DNA of 27,080 nt, from positions 1 to 27,080 of the IMG/VR virus record IMGVR_UViG_3300037961_005511; one strand, given 5' to 3'. Shown here in pieces: positions 4,571-19,800 of the stretch. How positions within the stretch are numbered: position 1 is the stretch's first letter; every line of letters starts with the position of its first letter. Position numbers and translations under genes: made by a program. The notes beneath the pieces were generated by a model, which had not been told where the DNA came from, made no database searches, and saw only the letters and a program-made list of their open reading frames with translations. The DNA comes from a virus.

Positions 4571-5515
4571 ATGTCTTTTGCTGACCTTAAAAAGCAATCT
4601 AAGCTTGGTTCCCTGACTCAAAAACTGGTCAAGGAAGTCGAGAAGATGAACAACACTGGCGGTTCTGGTGACGAACGTGTCTGGAAACTGGAGTGTGACA
4701 AGAGTGGTAACGGTTATGCCGTCATCCGCTTCCTGCCTGCACCCAACGGTGAAGACCTGCCATTCGTGAAACTGTACTCCCACGCCTTCCAAGGTCCTGG
4801 TGGTTGGTACATTGAGAACTCTCTGACCACTTTGGGTCAGAAAGATCCTGTCTCTGAGTACAACACTCTGCTGTGGAACAACGGCACTGATGCTGGAAAA
4901 GATGCAGCACGGAAACAGAAGCGCAAACTGACCTACTACAGCAACATCTATGTTGTGAAGGATCCTGCTAACCCTGCCAACGAAGGTAAGGTTATGCTGT
5001 TCAAGTATGGTAAGAAGATCTTTGACAAACTCACTGCTGCTATGCAACCTGAGTTTGAAGATGAGGAAGCAATCGATCCGTTTGACTTCTGGCAGGGTGC
5101 CAACTTCAAACTGAAAGCGAAGAACGTTGCTGGTTATCGCAACTATGACTCTTCTGAGTTCGCTGCTCAGTCTGCTCTGCTGGACGACGATGATGCCATG
5201 GAGGCTATCTGGAAGAAGCAATACTCACTCGCTGAGATTGTTGCATCTGATCAGTTCAAGGACTACGACGCACTGAAGAAGCGTCTTGACTATGTTCTGG
5301 GTAACAAGGGCACTCCTCGTTTCCAAGACCAAGAGTCTGTCCAAGAGGAAGAAGAGTTCCGCGCTGCTAACCGTGGAACCCCTGTTCCACAGTCCATGAA
5401 GGAAGAACTGGATGCTCTGTCTAGTAGCAGTGGTGGTTTCAATGACCCTGACATCACCCCATCTTCCAATGATGATGACGACGCACTCTCTTATTTTGCC
5501 AAACTGGCTGAGTGA
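4571..5515 (+). CDS. 32: gp32 single-stranded DNA-binding protein
   Basis: 314 residues, near the 301 of T4 gp32. It coats single-stranded DNA in replication, recombination and repair and organises gp59/gp41 loading. The order is as in T4: a basic N-terminal cooperativity region (LKKQSKLGSLTQKLVKEVEK), an OB-fold core with VIRFLPAPNGEDLPFVKLYSH and YSNIYVVKDPANPANEGKV, then FKLKAKNVAGYRNYDSSEF, and an acidic Ser/Asp-rich tail (about 270-314) for protein contacts. The His of the T4 zinc site survives (H72 region) but the three Cys ligands are absent. It has its own sigma-70-type promoter. Only 6 nt separate it from the converging gp53. Confidence 0.95.
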   Translation: MSFADLKKQSKLGSLTQKLVKEVEKMNNTGGSGDERVWKLECDKSGNGYAVIRFLPAPNGEDLPFVKLYSHAFQGPGGWYIENSLTTLGQKDPVSEYNTLLWNNGTDAGKDAARKQKRKLTYYSNIYVVKDPANPANEGKVMLFKYGKKIFDKLTAAMQPEFEDEEAIDPFDFWQGANFKLKAKNVAGYRNYDSSEFAAQSALLDDDDAMEAIWKKQYSLAEIVASDQFKDYDALKKRLDYVLGNKGTPRFQDQESVQEEEEFRAANRGTPVPQSMKEELDALSSSSGGFNDPDITPSSNDDDDALSYFAKLAE

Positions 5516-5521
5516 GTCTGA

Positions 5522-6172
5522 TTACTGTGGTGAGGTATTTCTAGTATTCTCTACTCTGATAGTATTTCTATTTACGAACTGAGAAGACTTTTGATACTTC
5601 ATCGTTCTTCTAAAGTCCTCCAAGAAAATTCCCAAATAGGATGGTCTTAGAAGATAAATCCCTCTTCTTTGATTGTTGAGTTCAGTCTCATACTCAAAGT
5701 TAGTAACACCACCAGTTGGATTTAATGTTGCTGTTGGATCACCAGGTTTGGGAATAGTAAAACCCTGGTCAACTACTTTTCCTTTAGGTAAGATAAGTCT
5801 TCCATCAGCATCTTTTACTTCAGTGGTTACATAATGTCTGATAGCATTTAGATGAACACCATACTTATCTTCAGCATATTTGTAGACCTCTCTATCTGAT
5901 ATTGGCCATTCGTGCCTTACATTAATAATACCAGAACTTATGAGCACAACGAAGTCATACTCAGTAGAACCATAAACTTCTTCTGCTACTTGTTCTGGTC
6001 TAAAACCATCTCTAATATTGTACTTATCAAATAAGGTCAATACATTTTGGAGATCATCACGAAGTTTCATCCTTCTGAATATATTTTTTACTAAAATATA
6101 CTCTCTAGAGGAGTTTCTCTCTTTAAATGGTGATTGTATTAGTAAGTTTGGTAGTTCTCTAAAATAAGACAT
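5522..6172 (-). CDS. 53: gp53 baseplate wedge protein
   Basis: 216 residues (T4 gp53 has 196). It is the outer wedge component that joins baseplate wedges around the hub. The region around residues 50-110 (YNIRDGFRPEQVAEEVYGST followed by EYDFVVLI and HEWPISDREVYKYAEDKYG) follows the T4 pattern PEELANAIYGNPQLYWVLLM ... GWITSQEAAYQASIQKY. The start ATG overlaps the gp48 stop (TAATG on the minus strand). It is the last gene of the minus-strand late operon and runs to within 6 nt of the end of gp32. Confidence 0.87.
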   Translation of the reverse strand: MSYFRELPNLLIQSPFKERNSSREYILVKNIFRRMKLRDDLQNVLTLFDKYNIRDGFRPEQVAEEVYGSTEYDFVVLISSGIINVRHEWPISDREVYKYAEDKYGVHLNAIRHYVTTEVKDADGRLILPKGKVVDQGFTIPKPGDPTATLNPTGGVTNFEYETELNNQRRGIYLLRPSYLGIFLEDFRRTMKYQKSSQFVNRNTIRVENTRNTSPQ

Positions 6173-7386
6173 TAGTAACCTACACCTCCAGTTGGTGGTG
6201 TGGTGACTGCTTCATCTGGATTTGCAAGTGGACCCACAAACTGTTCCTCCTCATAATAGTTCTCTTCGTAAATTGGGTTGAGTTCTTTAAAACTTAGTTC
6301 CATTATCATATGAGTTGGTGTTCCGTCGTAAAATGTTGAATATACATTTGACGCTGTATAGTTGACATTTACATTTGTGAGAACAGTCGGTTTAAATGTG
6401 TTTAAGAATGGGTGAGGGTTACTACCTTTTCTGTATGAAAGTTGAAAAATATCTGGTGCACTTAAGAATATACCACCATTTTTCTTTGGAGCGGAGTGTG
6501 TTTTAAAGCAGCGAATTATCTTCATCACTACTTCCGCTTCTTTTCGATTACGAGGAAAAAATTCAAAAGAAAATTTAAATGATCTCAAAGTCACATTTTC
6601 AAATAATAATTCTAAGTTAGGGTTCAATACTTGTCCTGTTGCTCTGGATATTAAATCGCCAGGTCTTACTTGACCTCCTAACGCACTAATTGCTTGAGCA
6701 GAGACAGTATTAATGAAAGCAGTACGTATATCTGACGAAAACGTCGAATCTCCGAATGCATTTTGACCTGCTTCAAAAGCAACTCTCGCTGCTTCTAAAG
6801 GTCCCGTATTAATGAAGTCTTGACCAAACTTAAGACCAAATGCTTCAAGAGCATTTACACCTGCACCTCCCCACTTAATTTCATTGTTATCAGATATATT
6901 TTTTGGAATAGGTAAGAATATAGTTTCCAATAAGTCTTCTATATTGCCTGTTGTATTTGCAGATGTTCCATCTGGAACATTGAAATATTCTAAAGCAGAT
7001 CCATCATATACTCTTTTGGGTTTTTCACCTGAGTAATCGATATAAGAAAAATCTTCTAAGTCTTTTATACCAAAATTTCCACCATCAATTCCAGGAGGAT
7101 TATATTTCTTAATTTGAATCTGCAAAAAGTCAGATTCTTCATTCATAATGTCATATGGATATCTTAATATTTCACCACTAGTCGGTCTATTTTTTCTACC
7201 ACCTTTTCGTTTTTGTATTTCAGTTCTTTTTTCGCCAGGAGATGTCGTGGGATTGGCTTGTTCCTGTCTTACTTGTGAGTCGGTTTTATTTTGAGCTCTC
7301 CGAAAAGTTGCTGCTTCTCTAAAAGCAGAATCCTCACTTTTTTTATAATTATTATAAAAACTTTGATCCCCACCTGCAGGTATCAT
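6172..7386 (-). CDS. 48: gp48 baseplate tail-tube cap
   Basis: 404 residues (T4 gp48 has 364). It forms the ring on the hub from which, with gp54, the tail tube polymerises. The N-terminal 60 residues are polar and Lys/Arg/Gln-rich. The C-terminal half has the tube-like fold: FKFSFEFFPRNRKEAEVVMKII, LSAPDIFQLSYRKG, and a final TPTHMIMELSFKELNPIYEENY, the conserved MxLxFKEL block of T4 gp48/gp54 and tube proteins. A CTAAATA motif on the minus strand precedes the start by 19 nt, overlapping the upstream stop, so it can be transcribed late separately from the two genes before it. Confidence 0.85.
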   Translation of the reverse strand: MIPAGGDQSFYNNYKKSEDSAFREAATFRRAQNKTDSQVRQEQANPTTSPGEKRTEIQKRKGGRKNRPTSGEILRYPYDIMNEESDFLQIQIKKYNPPGIDGGNFGIKDLEDFSYIDYSGEKPKRVYDGSALEYFNVPDGTSANTTGNIEDLLETIFLPIPKNISDNNEIKWGGAGVNALEAFGLKFGQDFINTGPLEAARVAFEAGQNAFGDSTFSSDIRTAFINTVSAQAISALGGQVRPGDLISRATGQVLNPNLELLFENVTLRSFKFSFEFFPRNRKEAEVVMKIIRCFKTHSAPKKNGGIFLSAPDIFQLSYRKGSNPHPFLNTFKPTVLTNVNVNYTASNVYSTFYDGTPTHMIMELSFKELNPIYEENYYEEEQFVGPLANPDEAVTTPPTGGVGY

Positions 7387-7404
7387 TATCGACCTCTTTT
7401 CTTT

Positions 7405-7752
7405 CTATTTAGTACGGTAATAAGCAGTTGGGAGTTCCATAGCATCAGCAAGTTCACTTGGATATATTTCGTAAAGACCACCAACCATTTCTTGCCAAGT
7501 ATATTGTCTCATTTCACGCCAGTGGAAACTAAAAGCCTTGAAACCCCATTGGAATACTTCCTCCATACGAACAAGAGGATGTTGGTCATAACGTAATGCA
7601 GGAGTCTTAGCAAAGTAGACAAAAGTGTAGATGCCACCGATGGTAGGTGATGCACCCTCTTCAAGGACTTCAAGTAAGTCTTGCATTACATCATCAGGAT
7701 GAATGCGCTCACCTACGTTTAAGTTGTCTACGACTTGCCTGACTCTGTTCAT
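7405..7752 (-). CDS. Hypothetical protein between gp4 and gp48
   Basis: 115 residues. The start overlaps the gp4 stop by 4 nt (ATGA), so the two are coupled. An acidic N-terminal helical part with PDDVMQDLLEVLEEGA (about 19-34) is followed by a compact domain rich in aromatic residues: GGIYTFVYFAKTPALRYDQH at about 39-58, FQWGFKAFSFHW, and RQYTWQEMVGGLYEIYPSEL. I recognise no family. Its place among head-completion and baseplate genes suggests a virion or assembly role. The aromatic block may be a binding surface. Confidence 0.75.
   Translation of the reverse strand: MNRVRQVVDNLNVGERIHPDDVMQDLLEVLEEGASPTIGGIYTFVYFAKTPALRYDQHPLVRMEEVFQWGFKAFSFHWREMRQYTWQEMVGGLYEIYPSELADAMELPTAYYRTK
7406..7412 (-). 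promoter_or_regulatory. 48: CTAAATA late-promoter motif for gp48
   Basis: CTAAATA on the minus strand, overlapping the TAG of the upstream gene, 19 nt before the gp48 ATG at 7386. Confidence 0.6.
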
Positions 7753-8186
7753 TTGATGCCGAGTTCTTTCTCAGTGAATACTTTGAAAATGTAACTCCTA
7801 TCCTTACACCACTCTGATGCTGCTTCCCATTTCGCTTGGTTCTTAGCATACTCATACGCCTCACGAAGATATCCAGAGGTTTGGCGTTTTGGTTTTTTGG
7901 GTGGTGCTGTTTGTTTCTTTGGTTTGATTTCAATAATATATTTCTTCGTATATCCTGTTGACTCTCTTACTTTGATGTAGAAGTCTGGGAAGTAACGATG
8001 AACTTTACCATCAACTGGTGAACGATATGGGATAATGATCTCTTCACTTCCCCACTCAAGAATGTTTTCGTTTAGATCACAGTAAACCATAAACTTACGC
8101 TCCCAGAGGGAACGGTATATGATGTTTGATGGATTACCTTTATACTTTCTAGGATGTGACGGTTGATATTTTCCCTTATATGCCAT
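7749..8186 (-). CDS. 4: gp4 head-completion protein with PD-(D/E)XK-like core
   Basis: 145 residues (T4 gp4, also called gp50, has 150). In T4 it finishes the packaged head before tail joining. The N-terminus is basic (YKGKYQPSHPRKYKG) and the core reads RSLWERKFMVYCDLN, then YFPDFYI at 65-71 and YIIEIKPKKQ at 83-92. The PD and ExK pair (P67-D68, E86-I87-K88) with the upstream E29 is the arrangement of TnsA/PD-(D/E)XK nucleases, so an endonuclease activity is likely. Translation begins at the very edge of the divergent promoter region, 29 nt from a minus-strand CTAAATA motif. Confidence 0.87.
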   Translation of the reverse strand: MAYKGKYQPSHPRKYKGNPSNIIYRSLWERKFMVYCDLNENILEWGSEEIIIPYRSPVDGKVHRYFPDFYIKVRESTGYTKKYIIEIKPKKQTAPPKKPKRQTSGYLREAYEYAKNQAKWEAASEWCKDRSYIFKVFTEKELGIK

Positions 8187-8193
8187 CTAAATA
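8187..8193 (+). promoter_or_regulatory. 54: CTAAATA late promoter for gp54
   Basis: CTAAATA on the plus strand immediately outside the gp4 start codon, 30 nt before the gp54 GTG at 8224. Mirror image of the minus-strand copy at 8216-8222. Confidence 0.7.
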
Positions 8194-8215
8194 ATAATAA
8201 CGAAACCATATTAGG

Positions 8216-8222
8216 TATTTAG
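8216..8222 (-). promoter_or_regulatory. 4: CTAAATA late promoter for the gp4-gp48-gp53 operon
   Basis: CTAAATA on the minus strand, 29 nt before the gp4 start at 8186. It ends one base before the GTG of gp54 on the other strand. Confidence 0.7.
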
Positions 8223-8223
8223 A

Positions 8224-9015
8224 GTGGTAAGACCCAGAAAGATATCGAGTTTTAAACCCACACTCACCAACCTCGCACAGACTTCACATTACTTGGTACA
8301 GTTTGGTGGTCTTGATGTTCAGTTAAGAAAGCATCTTAACGTTAGAGGTATCGACTATCGTTTTATTACTAACACTTCTGGAATACTCTGCCAGTCTGCT
8401 GTTCTTCCTGGAAGTGGAATGGCTACTGTTCAGATCAATGGTAACAGAATGGGTGTAACAGAAAATATGGTTCACTCAAGAATTTTTACTCCTATTCAGC
8501 TAGAATTTTATGTTGATAATGAATACAAGGCATTGAAGTTTCTTGAGCATTGGATGGAATTTATTGCTAACGGTGCAACATCACGAGAAAATAACCAGTC
8601 GAAGAAGAATTATCATATGAGAATGCAATATCCTGATGATTACAAATGTGATGAGACTCGTATTATTAAATTTGACAGAGACTATAGAGAAGAGTTAGAA
8701 TATAAGTTCATTGGTATGTTTCCTAGTGATCTTACATCTGTTCCTGTAAAGTATGATAACTCTCAAATATTGAAGGTTAATGCTACATTCAAGTTTGATA
8801 GATACGTTGTGGGTAGGTTTGATAGTTACTCTGTCAATAGAGGAACTGCTAACAATATTGCAGGATCAAGTAAAGTCCCTAGTAAAAACAGAGACACCAG
8901 AGATGATGGAAATATTTTTGGAATCGAAATGAAATCAAAAGTAGATTCCTCAGCATATAATAGACTTAGTGATACTCTTGATACATTTACTCTTACACAG
9001 GGGCGTAAAATTTGA
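8224..9015 (+). CDS. 54: gp54 baseplate tail-tube initiator
   Basis: 263 residues (T4 gp54 has 320). It sits on the gp48 ring and nucleates the tail tube. The N-terminus (KISSFKPTLTNLAQTSHYLV) and the following block with VRGIDYRF and GSGMATVQINGNRMGVTENM have the tail-tube-like fold of cyanophage gp54. The downstream IFTPIQLEFYVDNEYKALKFLEHWMEF is also typical. The start is the unusual GTG at 8224: the next ATG is about 65 codons in and would remove conserved sequence. The likely leader is only about 20 nt with no strong Shine-Dalgarno. Confidence 0.85.
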   Translation: MVRPRKISSFKPTLTNLAQTSHYLVQFGGLDVQLRKHLNVRGIDYRFITNTSGILCQSAVLPGSGMATVQINGNRMGVTENMVHSRIFTPIQLEFYVDNEYKALKFLEHWMEFIANGATSRENNQSKKNYHMRMQYPDDYKCDETRIIKFDRDYREELEYKFIGMFPSDLTSVPVKYDNSQILKVNATFKFDRYVVGRFDSYSVNRGTANNIAGSSKVPSKNRDTRDDGNIFGIEMKSKVDSSAYNRLSDTLDTFTLTQGRKI

Positions 9016-9018
9016 CCT

Positions 9019-9025
9019 CTAAATA
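9019..9025 (+). promoter_or_regulatory. CTAAATA late promoter for the gp26/gp51 region
   Basis: CTAAATA three bases after the gp54 stop, 21 nt before the gp26 ATG at 9047. Confidence 0.65.
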
Positions 9026-9046
9026 AAAATATGAATTGAAAACGTT

Positions 9047-9763
9047 ATGCCATTACCAAAGATTGCTACTCCAACATATGAGTTGGTATTGCCTTCATCA
9101 GGAAAGAAAATAAAGTATAGACCTTTTCTGGTAAAGGAAGAAAAGGTTCTCATCATTGCTATGGAAAGTGAAGATGAGAAACAAATTGCTCAAGCAGTTA
9201 CTGATGTTATCAAGAGTTGTATTGTAACTCGTGGTGTAAAGGTTGATGACCTTTCTACTTTTGATATCGAGTATCTCTTCCTCAACATTAGAGGTAAGTC
9301 AGTTGGTGAAGATGTTGAGGTTCTTATTACCTGCCCCGATGATGGAAAGACTCAAGTTCCTACTTTGATTAGTCTTGATGATATCAAGGTAATCAAATCG
9401 AAAGAGCACAAGAGAGATATCAAACTTGATACTGAACTCACTTTGAGAATGAAGTATCCATCAATGTCTGAGTTTATCAAAACTAACTTTAGTGGTGGTG
9501 AAGTATCTGTTGATGAGACCTTTGATCTTATCTCAGTCTGTATTGAACAAGTCTTCAATGAAGAAGAGTCTTGGACTGCCTCTGACTGCACCAAGAAAGA
9601 ACTGAGAGAGTTTTTGGAGCAACTTAGTTCTGCACAGTTCAAACAAATTGAGAAGTTCTTTGAGACGATGCCGAAACTTTCGCACACTGTGAAAGTTACT
9701 AATCCAAAGACTGGTGTTGATAATGAAGTTGTACTTGAGGGTCTAACAGCTTTTTTCGCGTAG
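9047..9763 (+). CDS. 26: gp26 baseplate hub / tail assembly chaperone, zero-frame product
   Basis: 238 residues (T4 gp26 has 208). T4 gp26 is needed for building the baseplate hub with gp51, and the family resembles tail-assembly chaperones. The N-terminus (PLPKIATPTYELVLPSSGKK) followed by IKYRPFLVKEEKVLIIAMES is the conserved opening of cyanophage gp26. The central part gives FDIEYLFLNIRGKSVGE, and the C-terminal part is helical and acidic (EQLSSAQFKQIEKFFETMPKL). The last codons GCT TTT TTC GCG TAG contain the slippery heptamer at 9751-9757 followed by a hairpin, so a fraction of ribosomes probably continues into the gp51 frame as a 300-residue fusion. Confidence 0.87.
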   Translation: MPLPKIATPTYELVLPSSGKKIKYRPFLVKEEKVLIIAMESEDEKQIAQAVTDVIKSCIVTRGVKVDDLSTFDIEYLFLNIRGKSVGEDVEVLITCPDDGKTQVPTLISLDDIKVIKSKEHKRDIKLDTELTLRMKYPSMSEFIKTNFSGGEVSVDETFDLISVCIEQVFNEEESWTASDCTKKELREFLEQLSSAQFKQIEKFFETMPKLSHTVKVTNPKTGVDNEVVLEGLTAFFA

Positions 9764-16854: not shown

Positions 16855-19800
16855 ATGGCAAGACAAGATCCAGATCCTAATGTAAATCCTAATATAACAG
16901 GTCAGGAGTCCTGGTTCAATAGTGATGCAAGATTTTATGAAGATGTATACATCTACGGAGATCTGTATCTAGAAGACTTAGATGTTGATGGACAAACTGA
17001 GTTAAATAACCTGAATGTAGCAGGTATATCCACACTCAAGGATTCTATCACAACTGGCATTGCTACCTTTAGAGGTGATGTCTTTATTGATAAACCACTT
17101 GATAACCTTCAGGTTGGTATTCTCACAACAACAGATAGATTTTATGTTGGTGAGAACAGGGACATTTCGATGTTTGGTAGCGGTCCTAGGCAGGGTCGCG
17201 TTGGTATCGGCACCACACAACCTGATAGGTTAATTGATGTTGCTGGTGATATCAAGATTGACCAGAACATCTATGACTCTGATAACAATCCAGGTCAAGA
17301 TGGATTTTTCTTATCAAGAGATATCAATGGTATCCGCTGGGTTCAAGCTGCTCCAGATGCCTTAACTGATGGTTTCTTTGTAAAGAACGAAGGTGTCAAT
17401 GTTGGTGTAGGTTCATTCACCATAATGAACTTCATCGGTACACGCTCTGGTGGAGATCTTGTCAATGCTACGGTAAACCCCAGCAACCCTCTACAGGTTG
17501 ATGTTGATATTATCGATCATTGGGTAAAGACAAATGCTGGTATTCATACCACAGTCAATGTTGGTATTAATATCAACAACCCCACTGTTCCTCTTGATGT
17601 AAATGGTCAGGCTCTGTTTAGGGGAGAAGTTGAGTTTGAAAGAGAAGTATTCATCGATAGTGGTCTGATCGTATCAGGTTTTGCCACAGGAACTATCTCT
17701 ACCGCTAGAATAGCAGGTTTTGCTCTTACGGCTGGTATTGCTACCTTTACACCTACTGCTGGTTTTGCACTCACGGCAGGAATCGCTACCATCGCTGGGT
17801 TTGCCCAGACTGCTGGTATTGCAACCTTCACACCCACTGCTGGTTTTGCCCTTACCGCTGGTATCTCTACCTTTGCTATTAAGGCAGGTATTGTTACTTT
17901 CGCAGAGATAGCAGGATACTCAACATTCTCTGGTTTATCTACAAGTGCTGGATTTGCTCAGACTGCTGGTATTGCTACATTCGCTAACCGTGCAGGATTT
18001 GCCCAGACTGCCGGTATCTCTACGTTCGCAAGAACTGCTGGTTTTGCTCTTACTGCTGGTATCTCTACGTTCGCAAGAACTGCTGGTATTGGAACAACTG
18101 CCCTGAATATTAGAACTGTTCAAACAACCAGTGATCAGTTTTTCTTCTTACCATTTGTTGAAAACTCTACAAGCACAGATGGTGAGATATTAAGAGTTGA
18201 CCCTGGTATCAGATATAACTCATTTAGAAACTCTGTAGAAATAGATGGTGACTTAGATGTTGATGGTGTATCAGAACTGGACACCACCAATATTTCTGAA
18301 AATTTAAACGTTGTTGGTCTCGCAACTTTTGGTGGAATCACGACAGTCACAGGTCCAACACTGTTCACTAAACAATTAAACGTATCTGGACCTTCTACCT
18401 TCTCTGGTTCCGTAGACCTTGATGGTCCTGTATTTGATATCAATGATAGTGCAGGTGTAGGCAAGACTGACTATCGCTTGGCTACTGTAGGTACTGGTGT
18501 ATCTTGGAGACCACCAGGTGTTCAGACAAAGAATATTCTATACGTTACCAAAGATGGTAGTGATAATAATACAGGTTTACTTGAGGGTGATGCTAAAGCA
18601 ACTATCGGAGGTGCTTGTGAAGCAGCACAAGATGGTGATACCATCTATGTAAGACCAGGTGTGTATTTTGAGAATAATCCTGTTGGAATGAGAACTGACG
18701 TTTCTATCACTGGTCAGGATCTTAGACTTGTTACTGTCGTTCCACGTAATCCAGGAGATGATATCTTCCACGTAAGAAGAGGATGTCTGGTTGAGAACTT
18801 GAACTTTGCTGCTGAAACCTTTGGTGTTGACCACGCACCAGGTGGTTGTGTTGCATTCCCACCGACATCAGAAGGTGTTCTTGCTGGTGTTACCAGTGCC
18901 AGAAGTGGATATATTGGACTTGGACCTATCAACGAAGGACCAAGTGGAAGGTGGAGGTCACCATATGTAAGAAACTGCACCAACTTTATCACCGGTAGTG
19001 TTGGTATGAGAATCGATGGAAACTTTGCCATCGCAAACTACACAGGAACAAATAACTTAGGTCAAGACCTTCGCAGTATGGTCTGCGACTCATTCACTCA
19101 ATACAATGAGGCGGGTATTGGTGTCTCCATCACCAATAAAGGATACGCTCAGTTGGTTTCTATCTTCACTATCAACTGCGATATTGCTATCTTCTGTGCT
19201 TCTGGTGGACAATGTGACCTTACAAACTCAAACTCATCATTTGGTAATGTTGGTCTGATGGCTGACGGCACCAGTAATGCAGAGTTTACTGGAGTCACAA
19301 CCACCTCAGTCATCGCTGGAGTTGATACCTTTGAGTTTGATGATGTAAGAGATGAGTTCAATAATCCCAGAAAACCATTTGATGGTCAGGGTTGTTTCTT
19401 CAAGGTAGACCTTGCAGACTACAATGATGTTGGCGGTGCTACAGGTATTGTTACACAACCAATGAGAACTCTCCGTAGAGTCGAGATAACAAATGGTGGT
19501 TCTGGATATACTGTTGGAGCTCCACCTAACGTTCTTATTGATACTCCACAAGGACCAGAGTCAATCGTTGCAGAACTATCTGCTAATGTAAGTGCTGCAG
19601 GAACCATTAGTTCTGTAGATATCATTGCAAGTGGTAGAAACTTCCTCCCCAACCAACCAATGAATATCACCTTCTCTGAAGGTAATGCTGTTGCGATTGC
19701 TGTCACTGATCCTATCCTGTTTACTGTTGATACTGCAACAGAACCAACAACTGCTGGACTCACTACAGTTACATTCAATGAGTTTATTCCATACTCTGTA

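Follow-up and report, generated by a model that had tools for sequence, protein, structure and literature searches.

Putative late promoters facing each other at the gp4 junction of T4-like phages

The late promoter of T4 reads TATAAATA at positions -13 to -6, and that of Aeh1 reads CTAAATA, starting at -12 (PMC1524935). The motif of the cyanomyoviruses S-PM2 and Syn9 is NATAAATA (PMC2984593). The bubble of T4 late complexes extends from -12 to +2 (PMC7892883) and these complexes carry the sliding clamp upstream (PMC2988020). The T4 late promoter (gp55/gp33/gp45) resembles the locus described here in that it consists of a single -10-like box with no -35 element, upstream of late virion genes. 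Face-to-face promoters of another kind are found in temperate phage 186, where the sigma-70 promoters pR and pL form a lysis-lysogeny switch together with a repressor. Searches of an open-licence library, judged by titles and abstract openings, brought up no paper on a facing or overlapping late-promoter pair at gp4; much T4 work lies outside that library, so a description of the T4 pair may well have been published already. A study of Syn9 start sites has reportedly been published.

The window, the whole stretch of 27,080 nucleotides that was analysed, is part of a 29.7-kb virus fragment whose nearest annotated relatives are T4-like cyanophages, e.g. S-SKS1, P-SSM2 and S-SRM01. The local gene order is gp32 on the plus strand, then gp53, gp48, a gp2-like gene and gp4 running leftward, and a gp54-like and a gp26-like gene running rightward. 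The first-pass annotation had given the leftward operon as gp4-gp48-gp53 and had omitted the gp2-like gene (7752-7405). The name gp54 comes from the same annotation; the family match of this gene reads 'tail tube'. The features around the junction were:

5522-6172, minus strand: gp53, baseplate wedge subunit (phrog_232, E 2.3e-68)
6172-7386, minus strand: gp48, baseplate tail tube cap (phrog_230, E 8.4e-74)
7412-7406, minus strand: extra CTAAATA, 19 nt upstream of the gp48 start, candidate separate late promoter for gp48-gp53
7405-7752, minus strand: gp2-like gene, DNA end protector family (phrog_429, E 1.8e-15, partial match), overlapping the end of gp4
7749-8186, minus strand: gp4, head closure/head completion protein (phrog_218, E 7.5e-61), leading the leftward operon, start codon 8186-8184
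8187-8193, plus strand: CTAAATA, putative late-promoter box of the gp54-like gene, directly after the gp4 start codon; the first base of its octamer TCTAAATA lies within the complement of that codon; pair in 205/219 relatives
8194-8215, no strand: 22-nt spacer between the boxes, containing both starts predicted from T4 numbering, 8199 (plus) and 8210 (minus)
8213-8215: weak AGG within the spacer
8222-8216, minus strand: CTAAATA, putative late-promoter box of gp4, separating the AGG of the gp54-like gene from its GTG; pair in 205/219 relatives
8224-9015, plus strand: gp54-like tail-tube-related protein with a GTG start (phrog_45 tail tube, E 9.2e-42), leading the rightward operon
9019-9025, plus strand: extra CTAAATA, 21 nt upstream of the gp26-like start, candidate separate late promoter for the gp26-like gene
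9047-9763, plus strand: gp26-like baseplate hub protein (phrog_150, E 2.7e-81)

The junction (8184-8227) reads CAT CTAAATA (22 nt) TATTTAG A GTG, and the octamer TCTAAATA is present on both of its strands. The whole gap between gp4 and the gp54-like gene (8187-8223) is 37 bp and holds both boxes. The distance from the plus box to the GTG of the gp54-like gene is 30 nt and that from the minus box to the ATG of gp4 is 29 nt, as the first-pass annotation had described. Its view that the boxes face inwards, each predicted transcript running across the other box, was supported. Transcripts from the predicted starts 8199 and 8210 would overlap by 12 nt at their 5' ends if T4 numbering holds. T4 itself also has two facing TATAAATA boxes, at its gp4/gp53 junction. 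However, their heptamer gap is 7 nt and their predicted starts do not cross, whereas the window has the heptamer CTAAATA, a gap of 22 nt and overlapping predicted transcripts. Aeh1 shares the heptamer, the C at -12 and the position of the pair at the gp4 junction, but its boxes are back-to-back with no gap. The cyanomyoviruses S-PM2 and Syn9 belong to the same clade, have their motif at the same site upstream of late genes and both carry a facing pair. As in phage 186, the predicted transcripts would run through each other and interference would be expected; unlike pR-pL, the boxes of the window precede two late structural operons of a lytic phage, with no known regulator.

CTAAATA is no commoner in the window than chance would have it (6 seen, 4.65 expected), but its placement is not random. 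Five of the six lie 19-30 nt upstream of a called gene start on the same strand, and when ATAAATA was also counted, the two minus-strand boxes of the window both preceded leftward genes (gp4 and gp48). For comparison, P-SSM2 has a minus box at 4803-4797 and a gp48 start at 4769. The minus strand of Syn9 could be used as a control because nearly all Syn9 genes are on the plus strand. Plus- and minus-strand counts in this genome were 37 and 1 for ATAAATA, 23 and 2 for CTAAATA, 27 and 16 for GTAAATA, and 14 and 12 for TTAAATA. Thus C also serves here, whereas the published cyanomyovirus motif has A at octamer position 2 (PMC2984593). Strand counts of [AC]TAAATA in ten marine T4-like phages were 83/11, 60/3, 69/11, 64/1, 59/5, 16/83, 64/4, 61/3, 60/6 and 112/14, among them Syn9 (60/3), P-SSM4 (64/1) and HTVC008M (59/5). 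Outside the marine set there was weaker or little bias (T4 51/45, KVP40 39/19, Aeh1 30/36).

P-SSM4 has one minus-strand [AC]TAAATA in 178 kb, with its facing pair at the gp4 start. The sole minus-strand ATAAATA of Syn9 is the junction box ahead of the leftward gp48-gp53 island, and the Syn9 facing pair is the only [AC]TAAATA/TATTTA[GT] pair with a gap of 8-40 in that genome. The median distance from box to gp4 start at the junctions was 27 nt, against 25 nt for single Syn9 promoters (those within 40 nt). Without the A/C condition, the facing-pair pattern was not enriched over a reversed control in every whole genome (T4 4 vs 8, S-SRM01 2 vs 6, S-SKS1 2 vs 5), so this pattern by itself is not enough to locate promoters. 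A scan of 7300-9200 found no sigma-70-like site overlapping the junction, and early sigma-70 promoters at the junction were rejected for this reason. The annotation of Syn9 includes gp55, and that of HTVC008M includes a late sigma factor. Every box of the conserved pairs described below begins with A or C, and these letters are strand-biased genome-wide; the boxes are therefore very probably gp55-type late promoters.

Relatives were gathered by similarity to gp4 and the gp54-like gene (160 loci, best 80 per scan), and a further 159 loci were added through gp4 of S-RIM2 and ACG-2014f (best 80 per scan), together with named phages. A gp4 start with enough upstream sequence was present in 315 of 326 loci, and the other 11 were left out. 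S-SKS1 (L162) was also removed, as its gp4 start was mis-set, though its junction does carry the facing pair. The final 314 loci gave 219 distinct gp4-upstream sequences, including the window and five named phages; this set is biased to close relatives because the best 80 loci per scan were taken.

Facing boxes were found in 205 of the 219 distinct junctions, one box in 11 and none in 3. When each sequence was resampled in 200 rounds, the mean number of facing pairs among the 219 junctions was 1.2 and the maximum 6. Position 1 was A or C in all 410 boxes of the 205 pairs, and the spacers were unconserved (148 distinct sequences) while the boxes were kept. When 216 of the 219 gp4 proteins were clustered at 80% identity, 29 of the 35 clusters contained the pair; at 70% identity only 6 of 9 did. 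This conservation and the genome-wide strand bias support the first-pass reading of the boxes as late promoters. A fixed 37-bp spacing, which had been suggested as a trait to look for in relatives, was rejected, as the heptamer gap ranged from 12 to 27 nt and was once 39. The expectation that relatives with the same gene order would always have the pair held for most junctions, but some gp4/gp54 junctions were without a second strict box.

Three junctions scored as having no box (L107, L152 and L253) are probably insertions or mis-set starts, and L152 has a CTAAATA further along the stretch. The beginning of gp4 is interrupted or displaced in S-SKS1 (near 18216-18460), L107 and L253, and a stretch common to all three precedes the shifted start. 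This stretch looks like the DNA-binding end of a homing endonuclease.

Among the 14 junctions without a strict pair, 8 had a partner-directed box inside gp4 (first 150 nt), compared with 16 of the 205 with a pair (Fisher's Exact Test, 1.3e-5; the rows are related and fall into four gp4 groups, so this P overstates). In these 8 exceptions the partner-directed box is an ATAAATA, 65 nt into gp4, formed by the codons of a conserved Ile-Ile-Tyr. The site, on the other strand at gp4 offset 65 (L266, L278, L288, L289, L298, L311, L318 and L328), is a promoter candidate within a conserved protein segment. In L278, L298 and L311 the displaced box is 83-88 nt from the partner start. No clear substitute box was found on the gp54 side of L023, L282 and L292, which have no strict pair. 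From these sequences, a partner-directed late promoter seems to be required, and closeness to the junction does not.

The partner of gp4 is the gp54-like gene in the window, P-SSM2, S-PM2 and ACG-2014f; gp48 in Syn9, S-RIM2, P-SSM3 and P-SSM4, and also in KVP40 and Aeh1, where the boxes are back-to-back; gp53 in T4; and the gp2 gene in HTVC008M. The box pair tracks the gp4 junction and not the particular genes around it. The boxes face each other at the gp4 junctions of T4 (heptamer gap 7) and RB49 (gap 8), and are back-to-back in KVP40 (gap 8), Aeh1 (gap 0) and HTVC008M (gap 2). In RB49 (L376, about 2426-2490), near-identical stretches in mirror image, GGGTGCTAAAATG in either direction, lie on both sides of the facing boxes, so that the junction is nearly a palindrome.

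A wider sample of 80 further gp4 loci was taken with T4, HTVC008M and KVP40 proteins as queries. One 33-residue fragment (L429) was omitted, and with duplicates merged the 79 loci used came to 55 distinct upstream sequences. A divergent neighbour of gp4 was found for 45 of the 55. The boxes were facing in 21, back-to-back in 16 and in both arrangements in 1, while 9 had one box and 8 had none. All 13 pairs with a box no more than 9 nt from the gp4 start were back-to-back, and all 21 with a distance of at least 22 nt were facing, among rows that are related; three pairs at 18-20 nt were back-to-back. Facing geometry as a conserved trait was rejected, given the back-to-back boxes of Aeh1, KVP40 and HTVC008M and the way that geometry tracks the box-to-start distance. 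Near 20 nt this distance alone does not set the geometry, as the KVP40-type junctions (18 nt) are back-to-back.

Chance matches in AT-rich DNA agree with the raw CTAAATA count of the window, but they were refuted by conservation (205 of 219 junctions, 1.2 expected), and we give them practically no weight. Less negligible, though still very improbable, is that TATTTAG beside the start codons is a translation or RNA-processing signal in the mRNA and not a promoter of the opposite strand. Of the 205 pairs, 125 do have the box directly against the gp4 start codon (0 nt), and 63 have it overlapping that codon. However, the whole-genome strand bias of the heptamer, on which a translation signal was rejected, runs in the promoter sense; other late genes of the window have CTAAATA on the sense strand 19-21 nt upstream; and in T4 and RB49 the facing box stands at a greater distance from the start codon. 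The inverted repeat could also be a hairpin, a terminator or an operator for a single symmetrical protein, with perfect 8-bp arms (8186-8193/8216-8223) and a fold of the whole 44-nt strand at -6.2 kcal/mol (z -1.8). We hold this to be marginally less probable again than an mRNA signal: neither predicted transcript holds the two arms together, folding of the predicted leaders does not surpass that of shuffled sequences (z -1.05 and -0.10), the gap varies (12-27), and the arms are unlike (CTAAATA vs ATAAATA) in 71 of 205 pairs, including 62/71 with gp48 as partner. A hairpin or terminator was rejected on leader folding, varying gap and unlike arms.

The first-pass annotation had proposed that the pair is selected as a mutually exclusive promoter with a single slot, at which polymerase competition couples the output of the two operons. 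We consider this unlikely, though it deserves some weight, as the gap leaves no room for two complexes, whether in the named phages (0-22, with either geometry) or in 204 of the 205 pairs (12-27), and the pair is retained after gene shuffling with gp54, gp48 or gp53 as partner. Against it, compactness by itself predicts the same arrangement, and the box gap varies. In addition, the separate boxes of gp48 and gp26 would leave the greater part of each operon unlocked. In 8 rows a gp54-directed box lost from the junction reappears about 85 nt further back, and these rows can therefore do without closeness. The claim that the whole operons exclude each other was therefore too wide (gp48 minus box 7412-7406, gp26 plus box 9019-9025), and a 'balanced output' was unsupported, since exclusion makes the starts compete without setting a ratio.

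It is highly probable, in our judgement, that the two heptamers are true late promoters of the T4 type (gp55-dependent), each serving one of the divergent late operons meeting at gp4, and that the mirror image is a result of packing. T4-type late promoters require just a -10-like box, so two of them fit into a junction of about 35-45 bp. With a late leader of about 20-35 nt, each box would come to lie within the leader of the other gene and the boxes would face; with no leader, the same junction would carry them back-to-back. An obligatory pair of late boxes in an extremely compact junction would thus give the mirror image as a packing result, and it needs no special selection, because each box lies at an ordinary distance from its gene and the two cross over at about 40 bp. 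The 17 of 55 junctions in the wider sample with one box or none count against this explanation.

The downstream edge of the T4 late complex lies near +20. Two complexes of T4 extent would overlap at 8199 and 8210, which makes exclusion likely, and steric exclusion of the two polymerases is probably a by-product of the arrangement. The first-pass statement that polymerases cannot sit there together stands insofar as open complexes at both sites are implausible together; we infer the exclusion itself, as well as the start sites and the gp55 dependence. The first genes affected by exclusion would be gp4 and the gp2-like gene on one side and the gp54-like gene on the other.

In HTVC008M (L370-L372, NC_020484), 12 late boxes sit precisely 5 nt upstream of annotated start codons, 10 on the plus and 2 on the minus strand. 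An ATG was found at offset 5 in 13 of 64 boxes and in no more than 4 at any other offset from 0 to 44. This spacing would place the transcription start on the A of the ATG, and leaderless late mRNAs are predicted. Seven marine contigs (L281, L285, L303, L307, L312, L316 and L323) combine both spacings within one phage: the gene that follows gp4 has a box 5 nt upstream of its ATG, and the gp4 junction has a facing pair with a leader.

Late-promoter prediction failed in pelagimyophages in an earlier search (PMC7029224), and the HTVC008M boxes supply a late-promoter signature for this group. For the T4 superfamily, it is improbable that the junction is a conserved one-slot late promoter at which one clamp-loaded gp55 polymerase could sit in just one of two directions, the choice of operon being made by the replication fork through clamp polarity; this polarity is set by the nicked or primed strand (PMC2988020). 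If so, the ratio of the two gene groups would be tied to fork direction. T4, RB49, Syn9, P-SSM2, S-PM2, KVP40, Aeh1 and HTVC008M form a natural series for two clamp-activated polymerases sharing one site. The analysis also yields a testable rule, by which the T4-like gp4 divergence would keep two late boxes within about 40 bp, facing or back-to-back according to the length of the late leader.
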